Source of the DNA: Candidatus Hebobacterum abditum
GTDB taxonomy: Bacteria > Armatimonadota > Hebobacteria > Hebobacterales > Hebobacteraceae
Direction: 5' to 3'
NCBI GenBank assembly: GCA_029821875.1
Contig: JALGXW010000041.1
Span: 1 to 51,071, forward strand
DNA: 51,071 nucleotides
Shown: positions 15,918 through 44,827 of the stretch, in pieces
How the letters are laid out: each line of letters opens with the position of its first letter
Numbering within the stretch: position 1 is the stretch's first letter
Notes under the pieces: model-generated
Seen by the model: only the letters and a program-made list of their open reading frames with translations
Databases searched by the model: none
What the model was told of the DNA's origin: nothing
Program-made: the position numbers and the translations under genes

Positions 15918-16337
15918 ATGCAACTGAGTTATCTGCCGTTGGCAGCGGTGCTGTTTGCCTTTGGGGGTCTGCTCACCGCATCCGCCAGCTACGAAGGGGA
16001 CGTACTGACCTGTGTAACCGGCGTTCTCGCGTTTCTGCTGGGCGCCCTGACCGTAGTTGCCGCGCGTCCTCGGCCACGCCGCTGGCAGGCAGGGGCGGAC
16101 GCAGCTGCGGTGTGGGACCCAACAGCAGCTCCTCTCCTTGGTGAGATGCTCGTCAGCCGCCGCTTGATTTCGAAGGAGGTCCTCGCGACTGCACTTGAGC
16201 AGAGGCGATTCACCACGAAGCGCCTTGGCGAGGTCCTGCTCGAGATGGGCGCGGTGACACACTCGCAGCTGGAGCGCACACTAGAAGAGCAGTCTGCCAG
16301 GAGAGGCTGGCAGGTCAGCGAGAGCCCTCGGGCATAG
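15918..16337 (+). CDS. Two-helix membrane protein with an MshEN-like (GspE N-terminal) domain
   Basis: From the ATG at 15918 the protein has 139 residues: two membrane helices (MQLSYLPLAAVLFAFGG and TCVTGVLAFLLGALTVV), a basic linker, then a cytoplasmic C-terminal domain. This contains two 24-residue motifs with the MshEN pattern, the second perfect: RLGEVLLEMGAVTHSQLERT, then LEEQ. The motifs are separated by five residues, as in c-di-GMP-binding MshEN domains (family knowledge). There is no clear Shine-Dalgarno at 15918. The alternative GTG at 15777 has GGGAGA but adds 47 residues not present in the paralogue at 17593, so I prefer 15918. Other paralogue: 43155-43679. Confidence 0.75.
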   Translation: MQLSYLPLAAVLFAFGGLLTASASYEGDVLTCVTGVLAFLLGALTVVAARPRPRRWQAGADAAAVWDPTAAPLLGEMLVSRRLISKEVLATALEQRRFTTKRLGEVLLEMGAVTHSQLERTLEEQSARRGWQVSESPRA

Positions 16338-16392
16338 ACCGGCTGAGCAGCCGAGGGAACACTCGGGCTATCGTCAACGAGTGCTCCATTCT

Positions 16393-16422
16393 CGGATGCA
16401 GGCTGCTTAGGAAGAAGCTACG
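16393..16422 (+). repeat. 30-base element, copy E
   Basis: It begins CGGATGCAGGCTGC and ends TTAGGAAGAAGCTACG. It matches copy D (13273) at 26 of 30 positions but lies between two unrelated genes rather than next to an SLH coding region. Confidence 0.55.
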
Positions 16423-16588
16423 AGCCGCGTGGGTTACGCCTCCCTGCACCGCCTCCGGCACAGCCGGGTGGAGCCCCTCACCTCATCCTGCGGCACTACC
16501 CCGGAGACCCAGCGCGCTGCGCCGCGGCCGCCGCACGGCAGGAGGTAGCCTGAGCTAGCGCAAATAGGGGGTGCCAGGAGGCGTCAGC

Positions 16589-16699
16589 ATGGGAGAGGCT
16601 ATCGTCGTATTCAGTTGGGGCTCGCCTATTGGCTTGGGAGTGTTCTTCGCCGGTCTCGGAGTGCTCATCTGGTCGGGGCAGTTCAAGCGGAAGCAGTAG
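16589..16699 (+). CDS. 36-residue single-pass membrane protein
   Basis: This short frame encodes 36 residues, beginning MGEAIVVFSWGSP and ending WSGQFKRKQ. It has one membrane helix (roughly residues 12-28, IGLGVFFAGLGVLIW) and a basic C-terminal tail, so it follows the positive-inside rule. CAGGAGG lies seven bases before the ATG, a strong site for translation. It sits between the two MshEN-like genes on the same strand. I do not recognise a family and cannot give it a function, but the start site, length and topology are those of typical bacterial small membrane proteins. Confidence 0.6.
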   Translation: MGEAIVVFSWGSPIGLGVFFAGLGVLIWSGQFKRKQ

Positions 16700-16756
16700 G
16701 CCCACTCCCCACACCGCCAAGGCGCCGCGAAAACCGCGGGAAGACAGAGGTCCTGG

Positions 16757-17020
16757 TCACCAATCCTTCTGCTCTGCCAGCGTGGGGGCGCGCCATGAAT
16801 GGCCGCACTCCTGGCAGGTCAGCCGCAGATACTCCTTCGGCTCTCCTGTCTGTTCGCTCCGCTCTGTGCGGCGCTCGACGTCGAAGTTCGTGCAGCCGCA
16901 GCTCGGGCACATGCCGGCCGTAGCTCCTCTGCCGGCGGATGTCCCCTCCTCAGGTGACGGCCCGCAGGCCGACACGGCACACAAACACAGACAGAGCGGG
17001 AGAAGCAGCCAATTGCTCAC
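16757..17020 (-). CDS. Zinc-ribbon lipoprotein
   Basis: From the GTG at 17020 the protein has 87 residues, beginning MSNWLLLPLCLCLCAVSAC, a lipoprotein signal with lipobox VSAC. A short linker is followed by a zinc ribbon: GMCPSCGCTNFDVE and LRLTCQECGHSWRAP. The GTG overlaps the TGA stop of the upstream gene by GTGA, a strong sign of translational coupling to the 17017 gene. The combination of lipidation and a zinc ribbon is unusual; the role is unknown. A longer in-frame form extending to 17218 would overlap the whole upstream gene. Confidence 0.68.
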   Translation of the reverse strand: MSNWLLLPLCLCLCAVSACGPSPEEGTSAGRGATAGMCPSCGCTNFDVERRTERSEQTGEPKEYLRLTCQECGHSWRAPTLAEQKDW

Positions 17021-17334
17021 GACTCGTCGTCCTCGCTCTTGGGGCCGGCCCGCCGGACAAGGGCGACAGCTGCATCCTCCACCAGCACCCGAAGGAATCC
17101 GGTCCCGCCCGCGTGCCAGTCCTCCAGTTCGTCCTTGAGGGGCCGCCCGCCGATGAGCTCGCTGTCGTCGCCCAGGCGCAGGCGGACGTAGTAGCCTCCT
17201 TCGAATGGGGACGCCCACTCCACGCTGACCGTTATCCCAAGGCCCCTATGCTCACTGGGCAGGAGTGCCTCCACCTCAGTCGCCACCTCCTGGGGGGTCG
17301 GCAGCCTGCCACTACCAGTGATGTCTCCCGGCAC
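17017..17334 (-). CDS. Hypothetical protein, upstream of the zinc-ribbon lipoprotein
   Basis: A 105-residue protein without signal peptide or membrane helix. Predicted strands alternate (ITVSVEWASPFEGGYYVRL, LIGGRPLKDELEDW, FLRVLVEDAAVALVRR). The start is ATG at 17334; no strong ribosome-binding site is visible. Its stop overlaps the start of the lipoprotein gene by four bases, so the two are likely made together. I do not recognise the family. The fold may be a small beta-rich domain; there is no catalytic motif. Confidence 0.6.
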   Translation of the reverse strand: MPGDITGSGRLPTPQEVATEVEALLPSEHRGLGITVSVEWASPFEGGYYVRLRLGDDSELIGGRPLKDELEDWHAGGTGFLRVLVEDAAVALVRRAGPKSEDDES

Positions 17335-17592
17335 CGGACGCCTCCCTCATCTCGGTGTAAGCTCTCAGCGCCCCTCACAGGCGAAATGCCATGCCTGGGA
17401 GCGCCCACGCGACCTCATACCTGACGGATTCGCCAAGTCACGTATTGGGGGTGTCGCAGATATGGTACAACACTCCGGGCGCACTCCGCCATCGCCTGGC
17501 GAGGGGCGGGCTTTTGTGAGCGGCGGCGAGCGTCTAGGACGCGGGCAGCAGGGGACGGTGAACCATTACATACTCGCGTACGGAGGAGTGGG

Positions 17593-18021
17593 ATGTATTG
17601 GGGTTACTTGTCTCTGGGATTGCTCCTGTTTGTCCTAGCCGGTCTGATTATGGCCTCCGCGGTGTACGATGGGGGAGCCATCGTCTGGCTAACCGGCGTC
17701 CTCGCCCTCCTGCTGGCCGCCCTGAGCACGGGCACTGCACTTCTCGCGTGGCGCCGCCTGAGCCGCTCCCTTGAATCCGGCGCGGTGTGGGACCCAGCAG
17801 CAGCCCCGCGCCTTGGGGAGATGCTGGTCAGCCGCGACTTGATTTCGAAGGAAGACCTGGAGAGCGCACTTGAGCAACAGGCGGGCACCAGGAAGCGCCT
17901 CGGACAGGTCCTGGTCGAAATGGAACTGGTGACATACGCGGAAGTCGCGGAGGCGCTGGAGGAGCAGCTCTCCAGGAGAGCCTGGCAGACCAGCGGGGGC
18001 TCTCAAACAGAGACGGGCTGA
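17593..18021 (+). CDS. Two-helix membrane protein with tandem MshEN-like motifs
   Basis: The 142-residue protein is a paralogue of the 15918 gene. It begins MYWGYLSLGLLLFVLAG, has a second helix (WLTGVLALLLAALSTGTALL), a short linker and the C-terminal domain. The first motif reads RLGEMLVSRDLISKEDLES, followed by ALEQQ; a five-residue spacer (AGTRK) precedes RLGQVLVEMELVTYAEVAEA with LEEQ. The conserved glycine at position 10 is Asp in the first motif and Glu in the second, so ligand binding could be weakened. GGAGGAG lies five bases before the ATG, which fixes the start. It probably senses a cytoplasmic ligand, possibly c-di-GMP, at the membrane (inference). Confidence 0.82.
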   Translation: MYWGYLSLGLLLFVLAGLIMASAVYDGGAIVWLTGVLALLLAALSTGTALLAWRRLSRSLESGAVWDPAAAPRLGEMLVSRDLISKEDLESALEQQAGTRKRLGQVLVEMELVTYAEVAEALEEQLSRRAWQTSGGSQTETG

Positions 18022-41433: not shown

Positions 41434-42174
41434 ATGCTCTGCAGGAACTGTGGCCGGGAGATCCCCGAGGGAGCGCGCCAGTGCGCGCACTGCCAGGCGT
41501 CTCCGGGCCCACCGGGCCCGCCGGGTCCGACCTCTCCCCGACCTCGGACCAGCACCATGGCGGTGGTGTCGCTGGTGCTCGGGATTCTGAACTTCATCGC
41601 CCTCGGGATACCGGCCCTGCTCGGGCTCGTGCTCGGCATTGTGTCGCTGGTGAAGATCAACCGCAGCCAAGGCCGCCTGCGGGGGCAGGGCCTCGCCATC
41701 GCGGGGATCTGCATCTCGGGTTTCTGGGTGCTCATGCTGCCGCTGGTGGCCGCGATGGTCTTTCCGGTGTTCGCCCGGGCGAGGGCGTCGGCGAGGAAGG
41801 CCATCTGCCTGTCCAATGTGAAGAACATATCCTTGGCCATCCAGATGTACGCGGCCGACCACGATGACCACTTCCCGATGGCCGACCGGTGGTGTGAGTC
41901 GCTGTCGGAATACGTGCTGGACAAGGACGTCTATCGCTGTCCTTCGGCGCGGGACCTCGTGTGCGGCTATGCCTATAACGCCGCCCTGAGTGGAGCCACG
42001 CTGGCAGAGATCGCCGACCCCATGAATCAGGTCAGCCTCTTCGAGAGCGACGCCGGCTGGAATGCGGCCGGCGAGTGGGAGCTGCTGACCCCGACCCCCA
42101 GGCACCTGGGCGGGGATACGTGGGGCTATGTGGACGGCGGCGCCTACTGGGAGCCGCGCGACCCCTCGTACTGA
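41434..42174 (+). CDS. Zinc-ribbon, DUF1559-type prepilin-like membrane protein
   Basis: The 246-residue protein begins with a zinc ribbon (MLCRNCGREIPEGARQCAHC) and a short collagen-like PGPPGPPGP segment. It then has two helices of the DUF4190 type (SLVLGILNFIALGIPALLG; VLMLPLVAAMVFPVFARAR) and the DUF1559/SBP_bac_10 signature FPVFARARASARKAICLSN followed by IQMYAADHDDHFPMADRW. Such proteins are typical of Planctomycetes and Armatimonadota (family knowledge). The end has HLGGDTWGYVDGGAYWEP, matching the common GDNNYGFVDGHA-type motif. AAAGGAGG lies six bases upstream. The function is unknown; the family is surface-directed and often very numerous. Confidence 0.85.
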   Translation: MLCRNCGREIPEGARQCAHCQASPGPPGPPGPTSPRPRTSTMAVVSLVLGILNFIALGIPALLGLVLGIVSLVKINRSQGRLRGQGLAIAGICISGFWVLMLPLVAAMVFPVFARARASARKAICLSNVKNISLAIQMYAADHDDHFPMADRWCESLSEYVLDKDVYRCPSARDLVCGYAYNAALSGATLAEIADPMNQVSLFESDAGWNAAGEWELLTPTPRHLGGDTWGYVDGGAYWEPRDPSY

Positions 42175-43154: not shown

Positions 43155-43679
43155 CTAAGAAGGCGTTTCCTGCTGTTCCTGCTTCTGGCGGGCGAGGGTG
43201 CGCTGATATGTGAGGGCCTCTTCCACGTCGGACCGGGTGACGGCCTCCATCGAGACCAGTATCTCTCCCAGTCGGCGTCTATTCGCCTCCGTGCGCTGCC
43301 GCTCCAGCGCCTTCTCCAGCGTGCCGTGGCTGATGCGCTGGTACTTGTAGACCAACAGCGCGCCCAGCAGCGGCACCAACGGCTCCTGCGCGGCCGGGGC
43401 CTGCTCCTGTGCCACGAACTCCGGTGTCACCCCCGGCGGGCGACTGCGCGCATACAGCCCGGAGAGAAGCAGCAGGATCCCCGTCAGCAAGGAAATCGCG
43501 CCCACCCACCACCAGGGCCCCGACTCACTGGTCCAGGCGTGCCCGAAGGCTATCCCGCCCGCCGTGCCCAGCATCAACCCGATGACCACCCGCGCCCAGA
43601 CGACAACCACCCACACCACGTTGCCGCCGCCTCGGGCCTCCGCGCCCGAGGTTCGCTCCTCGCGATCGCTCGACGCCAT
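43155..43679 (-). CDS. Two-helix membrane protein with MshEN-like domain, third copy
   Basis: From the ATG at 43679 (AGGGGG seven bases upstream) the protein has 174 residues. The N terminus is basic and Gly-rich, followed by two membrane helices (VVWVVVVWARVVIGLMLGT and WWWVGAISLLTGILLLLSGL). The C-terminal domain contains two motifs of the MshEN type: LLGALLVYKYQRISHGTLEKA, slightly longer than usual, and RLGEILVSMEAVTRSDVEEA with LTYQ. It is a paralogue of the genes at 15918 and 17593 with the helices in the same position. Ligand binding, if any, is unknown. Confidence 0.78.
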   Translation of the reverse strand: MASSDREERTSGAEARGGGNVVWVVVVWARVVIGLMLGTAGGIAFGHAWTSESGPWWWVGAISLLTGILLLLSGLYARSRPPGVTPEFVAQEQAPAAQEPLVPLLGALLVYKYQRISHGTLEKALERQRTEANRRRLGEILVSMEAVTRSDVEEALTYQRTLARQKQEQQETPS

Positions 43680-44281: not shown

Positions 44282-44827
44282 GTGACCGAGCGAGTGGTGA
44301 TTGTTGCTTCCGATCCTGAATGGCCCGCCCTCTTCCTGGAATCGGGAACGTCTCTGCGGAAGGCGCTGGGTGATGCGGCCCTGCGCATCGATCACATCGG
44401 ATCCACTGCAGTGCCTGGGCTGGATGCCAAGCCGATCATCGATATCCAGGTATCTGTCGCAAGCTTCGATCCGCTCGACGCGCTGAGGATTCCGATCCAG
44501 AGCCTTGGATTCGTCTTCCGAGCCGACAACCCGGAGCTGACGAAGCGATACTTCCGCGAGGAGCCGGGCAAGCGCCGGACCCACATTCATGTGCGTCGTG
44601 CGGGCAGTTGGGCCGAGCAGTTCGCTTTGCTCTTCCGAGACTACATGCGGACACATGACGAAGACGCGAAGCGCTACGCTGAAGAGAAGTACCGGCTGGC
44701 GGCCCAGTATGGCGAAGATCGCCACGGCTACACGGAAGCGAAGTCGCCCTTCCTATGGGAGGTGATGGCGAAGGCCGACAGGTGGAGCCAGGAGACCGGT
44801 TGGGAGCCAGGCCTGTCGGACGCCTAG
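44282..44827 (+). CDS. GrpB-family (UPF0157) nucleotidyltransferase-like protein
   Basis: The 181-residue protein matches GrpB throughout: HIGSTAVPGLDAKPIIDIQV is the family's signature, followed by LGFVFRADNPELTKRYFRE and HVRRAGSWAEQFALLFRDYM. The fold belongs to the nucleotidyltransferase superfamily; its natural substrate is not established. GTG start with GGAG seven bases upstream. It is followed by a hairpin 7 bases beyond the stop. A 54-base repeat lies upstream. Confidence 0.88.
   Translation: MTERVVIVASDPEWPALFLESGTSLRKALGDAALRIDHIGSTAVPGLDAKPIIDIQVSVASFDPLDALRIPIQSLGFVFRADNPELTKRYFREEPGKRRTHIHVRRAGSWAEQFALLFRDYMRTHDEDAKRYAEEKYRLAAQYGEDRHGYTEAKSPFLWEVMAKADRWSQETGWEPGLSDA

Follow-up and report, generated by a model that had tools for sequence, protein, structure and literature searches.

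Membrane-anchored MshEN proteins as candidate c-di-GMP receptors in an uncultured bacterium of the class Hebobacteria

Three MshEN genes in the window

We analyzed a window of 51,071 nucleotides (the whole stretch of DNA under study) from an uncultured marine-sediment bacterium of the Armatimonadota, class Hebobacteria, with a genome of 4.3 Mb that is 95% complete. Candidatus Hebobacteria is a class of this phylum from anoxic marine sediment (PMC10290634). Three genes in the window encode stand-alone membrane proteins (hereafter TM-MshEN) in which a hairpin of two transmembrane (TM) helices is followed by an MshEN_N module: P0001 (15918..16337, plus strand, 139 aa; module at 16134..16292), P0002 (17593..18021, plus strand, 142 aa; module at 17809..17967) and P0003 (43155..43679, minus strand, 174 aa; module at 43203..43370). 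All of them start at TM1 or slightly upstream. Two hydrophobic helices were found in each by hydropathy analysis, and also in the predicted model of P0002. In P0001 they were placed at residues 3-21 and 29-47 (15924..16058, plus strand), with a short inter-helix loop devoid of Lys and Arg and an Arg-rich stretch after TM2. The initial annotation had described two membrane helices and a tandem MshEN motif in all three ORFs, in agreement with hydropathy, the motif read-out and a match to the NCBIfam model NF053729.

The motif pair of P0001 consists of LLGEMLVSRRLISKEVLATALEQR and RLGEVLLEMGAVTHSQLERTLEEQ, separated by RFTTK, and that of P0002 of RLGEMLVSRDLISKEDLESALEQQ and RLGQVLVEMELVTYAEVAEALEEQ, separated by AGTRK, so the spacing of exactly five residues noted earlier for these two genes holds. 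A motif length of 24 residues had been ascribed to all three proteins; this stands for P0001 and P0002 but not for P0003, in which LLGALLVYKYQRISHGTLEKALERQ (25 residues), RTEANRR (7 residues) and RLGEILVSMEAVTRSDVEEALTYQ form a 25 + 7 + 24 arrangement. Similarly, close paralogy fits P0001 and P0002 (51% identity), whereas P0003, at 31%, is less closely paralogous and belongs to a second subgroup, distinguished by one additional loop residue and the longer spacer. Motif I of P0001 is degenerate, with Leu for Arg1 and Arg for Gln24 (Gln24 is likewise missing in its orthologue), and all contacts of motif II are kept. P0002 keeps all contact positions, with Val at Leu17 of motif II, and Pro72 immediately precedes its motif I. 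P0003 has Leu for Arg1 in motif I and Val for Leu17 in motif II.

A Pfam search of the three proteins detected no T2SSE ATPase domain (PF00437), and a tail of just 14-17 residues follows motif II, confirming that no ATPase domain comes after the motifs. T2SSE matches of the host genome sit in other frames and on other contigs. Nor does a GT2 glycosyltransferase domain precede the TM helices in any of the three.

Domain identity, predicted fold and ligand site

NF053729 (c-di-GMP_motif, MshE-related) is a domain model with a curated cut-off of 38 bits and does not define the two-TM architecture. P0001 and P0002 scored above this cut-off (57.2 bits, E = 1e-15, and 65.4 bits, E = 2.9e-18, respectively), and P0003 was borderline (36.5 bits alone, E = 3.1e-9; 39.3 bits in the genome scan). 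The profile search proposed in the initial annotation thus returned an MshEN-type match through NF053729, although Pfam gave nothing above its cut-offs for the three proteins, with DUF4388 and DUF2949 matches remaining sub-threshold. A PHROGs search also gave nothing above cut-off. When P0002 was compared with the PDB using phmmer, PilF (1.5e-11), MshE (9.4e-5) and also PilB were matched; a family profile matched only PilF/PilB/MshE-type proteins there, with every alignment lying over the MshEN part.

A structure prediction had likewise been suggested, and the AlphaFold2 model of P0002, built with 46 aligned sequences and superseding a single-sequence model (pLDDT 62, pTM 0.27), has the MshEN fold. 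Long N-terminal helices (3-26 and 29-60) are followed by bundle helices at 74-80, 86-97, 103-109 and 115-133 with pLDDT near 90; the mean across residues 81-120 was about 90. MshEN_N is a four-helix bundle (PMC5013675), and its earlier description as a two-helix bundle was incorrect. The top Foldseek match was the MshE-c-di-GMP structure 5htl (rmsd 0.6 A, 56 columns, probability 1.00), and the best PDB matches were c-di-GMP-bound MshE (rmsd 0.6-0.8 A) and c-di-GMP-bound PilF-GSPIIB. The non-binding PilF GSPII-A fitted less well (rank 14, 1.7 A). Foldseek E-values were only about 0.01, with none at or below 0.001, because the module is small, and some of the closeness to MshE was to be expected, since ATPase sequences made up most of the alignment over MshEN.

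In the MshE-c-di-GMP crystal, the contact residues stack on the guanines, keep the ribose-phosphate in place and act as backbone hydrogen-bond donors (PMC5013675). We counted their conservation over 29 TM-MshEN copies from the host's family of genomes; these counts lean slightly upward because the motif finder accepted only hydrophobic residues at Leu sites and favored the contact-residue letters. Leu2, Gly3, Leu17 and Leu21 of motif I were invariant (29/29) and Gln24 was present in 26/29. Motif II had Arg1 in 26/29, Leu2 in 24/29 (otherwise Ile or Val), Gly3 in 28/29, Leu17 in 20/29 (otherwise Val), and Leu21 and Gln24 each in 28/29. The turn Gly at position 10 and Arg1 of motif I vary freely, the latter being Arg or Lys in just 8 of the copies.

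A Pro lies directly ahead of motif I in 28 of the 29 copies. This residue would break helix alpha1, and a broken alpha1 is needed for ligand binding in MshE (PMC5013675). In PilF, a stabilised helix 1 helps block binding by GSPII-A (PMC12002112), and GSPII-C binds although its motif II begins with Pro (PMC11731258). The isolated MshEN_N1-62 binds c-di-GMP with a Kd of 0.35 uM (PMC5013675). It had been proposed that replacement of a key Gly might abolish binding in some motifs. The Gly is indeed replaced; however, position 10 is a turn residue without ligand contact. Motif I of E. coli NfrB (read from NC_000913) has Pro1, Gln10 and Arg24, and NfrB binds c-di-GMP with a Kd of 1 uM, measured with a construct that also contained a second GSPII-like module (PMC8669469), which weakens this concern. 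Loss of binding is more to be suspected in P0001, whose motif I lacks Arg1 and Gln24, and most of all in a paralogue on another contig, C91:140574.

Family distribution, neighbors and signaling context

Of the 19-20 MshEN matches in the host genome, eleven are two-TM/MshEN proteins, with three of them encoded in the window, and six are assembly-ATPase-type proteins; the others comprise an MshEN-REC protein and a small protein that has no TM helices. Orthologues of eight of these eleven, together with further copies, occur in a sister species. Those of P0001 and P0003 are 72% and 75% identical, respectively, each with a dN/dS of 0.30. In seven of the eight pairs dN/dS was about 0.2-0.3 (0.21-0.32), with both the TM and the MshEN parts constrained (0.09-0.31 over MshEN). 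In the exception, C91:140574, the motif II signature is gone, and dN/dS reached 0.44 overall and 0.74 over MshEN. This gene adjoins another TM-MshEN paralogue; this tandem pair (C91:139847-140732, locus L054; also L062), with one motif intact and one degenerate, is kept in two species and is perhaps a receptor with a non-binding partner.

Five of the six genera in the host's family (g1, g2, g3, g4 and g6) yielded full-length TM-MshEN proteins. Beyond this family none was detected at E <= 1e-20 among 291 genomes of the phylum, with 13 candidates scored per genome. A separate contig scan, whose patterns favor close relatives, found two-TM/MshEN proteins in Hebobacteria only, the named matches (L114-L118) being Candidatus Hebobacteria; in other phyla the module occurred mostly in ATPases, or behind regions read as DUF4388-like or ribbon-helix-helix-like. 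A plasmid search gave no match. No description of two-TM, MshEN-only proteins was found in the literature searched, which included few subscription journals and excluded the supplementary architecture tables of PMC5013675. The domain and its ligand are already known; the architecture and its expansion appear new in these sources.

We looked for a conserved operon partner of TM-MshEN genes and found none. Tandem double IclR proteins (HTH-IclR_C-HTH-IclR_C; G000:C92:3784-5541, locus L045; G000:C71:4047-5696, locus L205; L114:4860-6518; L117:2147-3853), representing two different IclR proteins, have as their neighbor a TM-MshEN gene (C92, L114, L117) or, on C71, a TM-only relative. Prepilin-like genes, DUF1559 or GspG-like (window 41557-42174, L046:5839-8553, L115:2562-2951 and L079:1875-3065), occur no more than about 1.5 kb from four MshEN genes: one on C99, P0003, the sister-species (G001) orthologue of P0002 on L115, and a mini MshEN gene on L079. 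This is oftener than expected, in a small sample. Both neighborhoods were noticed post hoc, and neither is kept as an operon throughout the family; as partner leads, the type IV pilin-like proteins and the tandem IclR regulator are weak. One further gene (window 44282-44827 and L115:213-755; 92% identical protein) lies beside P0003 in the window but, in the sister species, beside the P0002 orthologue, an arrangement suggestive of a swap between TM-MshEN loci.

Some relatives retain the two-TM hairpin without an MshEN module (G000:C21:18577-18822, locus L210, with an orthologue in L082; G000:C71:6213-6371, locus L196). The C21 copy is nearly identical in the two species and shares its stop codon, and 15 of the 21 differences fall at third codon positions. 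Since such TM-only proteins exist, the hairpin may serve a separate function.

The host genome has four GGDEF matches, two of them strong with intact GGDEF or AGDEF motifs, and one of these strong proteins also holds a domain read as HD-GYP-like. Six c-di-GMP-I riboswitches scored above the gathering score (G000 C63:27535, C22:28342, C56:2394, C71:8779, C82:85374 and C97:54006). Taken together, the GGDEF proteins and riboswitches make it very likely that the cell synthesizes c-di-GMP. SLH-repeat proteins, prepilin-like genes, a receiver protein and a GGDEF/HD-GYP protein are found in the neighborhoods of the riboswitches. The window contains no Rfam element and no riboswitch adjoins the TM-MshEN genes examined, which leaves these genes themselves outside the control of any known c-di-GMP riboswitch. 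PilZ had no match in the host genome; the search covered PilZ, with EAL, degenerate GGDEF/EAL receptors and c-di-GMP-II riboswitches outside its genome-wide scope, so that absence of PilZ does not equal absence of any other protein receptor. By domain matches, MshEN is the largest class of candidate c-di-GMP receptors detected in this genome.

Interpretation and related architectures

The initial annotation was correct on what is present and largely correct on its identity, and its view of a nucleotide module separated from the ATPase and anchored in the membrane appears to be the best reading, one that would apply to all eleven paralogues. We propose, with a probability of roughly 70%, that each of P0001, P0002 and P0003 is a c-di-GMP receptor tethered to the membrane, which lacks its own effector domain and works through a partner protein. 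With a short loop between them on the outside, the two TM helices would leave both protein ends in the cytoplasm, a topology suggested by hydropathy and the positive-inside rule, and a flexible linker would bear the bare MshEN_N four-helix bundle. The two half-sites of the bundle would together hold one c-di-GMP, binding would alter an exposed bundle face or the association between copies, and the altered bundle could then recruit or release a partner at the membrane. What the analysis shows is the architecture, the size of the family, the selection on it, the conservation of contact residues and the predicted fold; from these we infer ligand binding, cytoplasmic topology and switching via a partner. 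The cell probably reads c-di-GMP at its membrane with bare receptors.

The closest precedent appears to be NfrB of E. coli, a c-di-GMP-activated protein consisting of a glycosyltransferase, two TM helices and MshEN; as in TM-MshEN, two TM helices directly precede an MshEN module, which in NfrB lies, and in TM-MshEN is predicted to lie, in the cytoplasm (PMC8669469). NfrB also shares the kind of motif I deviations (Pro at 1, Gln at 10, Arg at 24), and its binding was measured (PMC8669469). However, it has a glycosyltransferase and a second GSPII-like module, neither of which is present in P0001, P0002 or P0003, and similarity is clear over MshEN only, not over the TM helices, reaching TM2 at the most. 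The ATPases MshE, PilB and PilF (MshEN_N, MshEN_C and T2SSE) have the 53-residue MshEN_N module and its fold in common with TM-MshEN, whereas TM-MshEN lacks MshEN_C and T2SSE and has a membrane anchor instead. MshEN fusions with REC, HD-GYP, CheA and kinases, and Bd2402, are likewise free of a secretion ATPase and point to a general regulatory module (PMC5013675), but they bear a recognised output or input domain where the three proteins have a TM hairpin only.

Several other explanations were considered. The N-domain of XpsE or PilB is a protein-protein module, and TM-MshEN proteins could act mainly as docking adaptors in type IV pilus or type II secretion systems, where they would recruit the assembly ATPase or compete with it, c-di-GMP being optional. 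The six MshEN-bearing ATPase-type proteins of the host and the prepilin-like genes near C99, P0003, L115 and L079 fit this idea, as does retention of the fold without binding in XpsE and PilF GSPII-A (PMC5013675, PMC12002112). We consider it unlikely, because contact residues are more constant than the remainder of the module, a pattern that docking alone would not require, and most copies have no adjoining pilus gene.

Eleven effector-less copies in a genome without a PilZ match might also form a local sink or buffer, in which many cheap sites set the free messenger level near membrane enzymes without a switching partner. This is improbable: the paralogues are divergent and each is retained as a distinct orthologue, a diversity that a buffer does not need, and retention of the TM-only relatives suggests a separate role for the TM part. 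Slightly less probable still, the modules may be non-binding relics drifting after duplication. The lost motif II signature and relaxed MshEN constraint of C91:140574 (dN/dS 0.74) and the two contact residues missing from motif I of P0001 are in line with such decay, but the other seven orthologue pairs keep both the contact residues and low MshEN dN/dS (0.09-0.31).

MshEN is mainly known from secretion and pilus ATPases, in which it forms the regulatory front end. If P0001, P0002 and P0003 are receptors acting through partners, a multigene family that carries the MshEN pocket alone on a membrane anchor would show its use as a free-standing receptor, would supply c-di-GMP readers to a genome without detectable PilZ, and would offer a minimal system of about 140 residues for how MshEN passes c-di-GMP binding to a partner. 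More tentatively, and with less than even odds in our view, these effector-less receptors, expanded in one Hebobacteria family, might be the main protein-level readout replacing PilZ, with paralogues coupling to different membrane or surface machines such as pilin-like fibres and IclR-type regulators.

MshEN also occurs in smaller proteins. Mini proteins of about one MshEN module, without TM helices, are encoded at L079:1489-1728, L081:953-1156 and L113:1492-1698, all ending in an (N/D/S)PW tail, and further mini-MshEN frames of 88-97 aa occur in genome G013. Small MshEN proteins were also found in Bipolaricaulota, Acetothermia and Thermotoga MAGs (L171, L178 and L181). Two of them (L171 and L178) have a ribbon-helix-helix-like N-terminus, and such proteins are possible c-di-GMP-responsive DNA-binding proteins.
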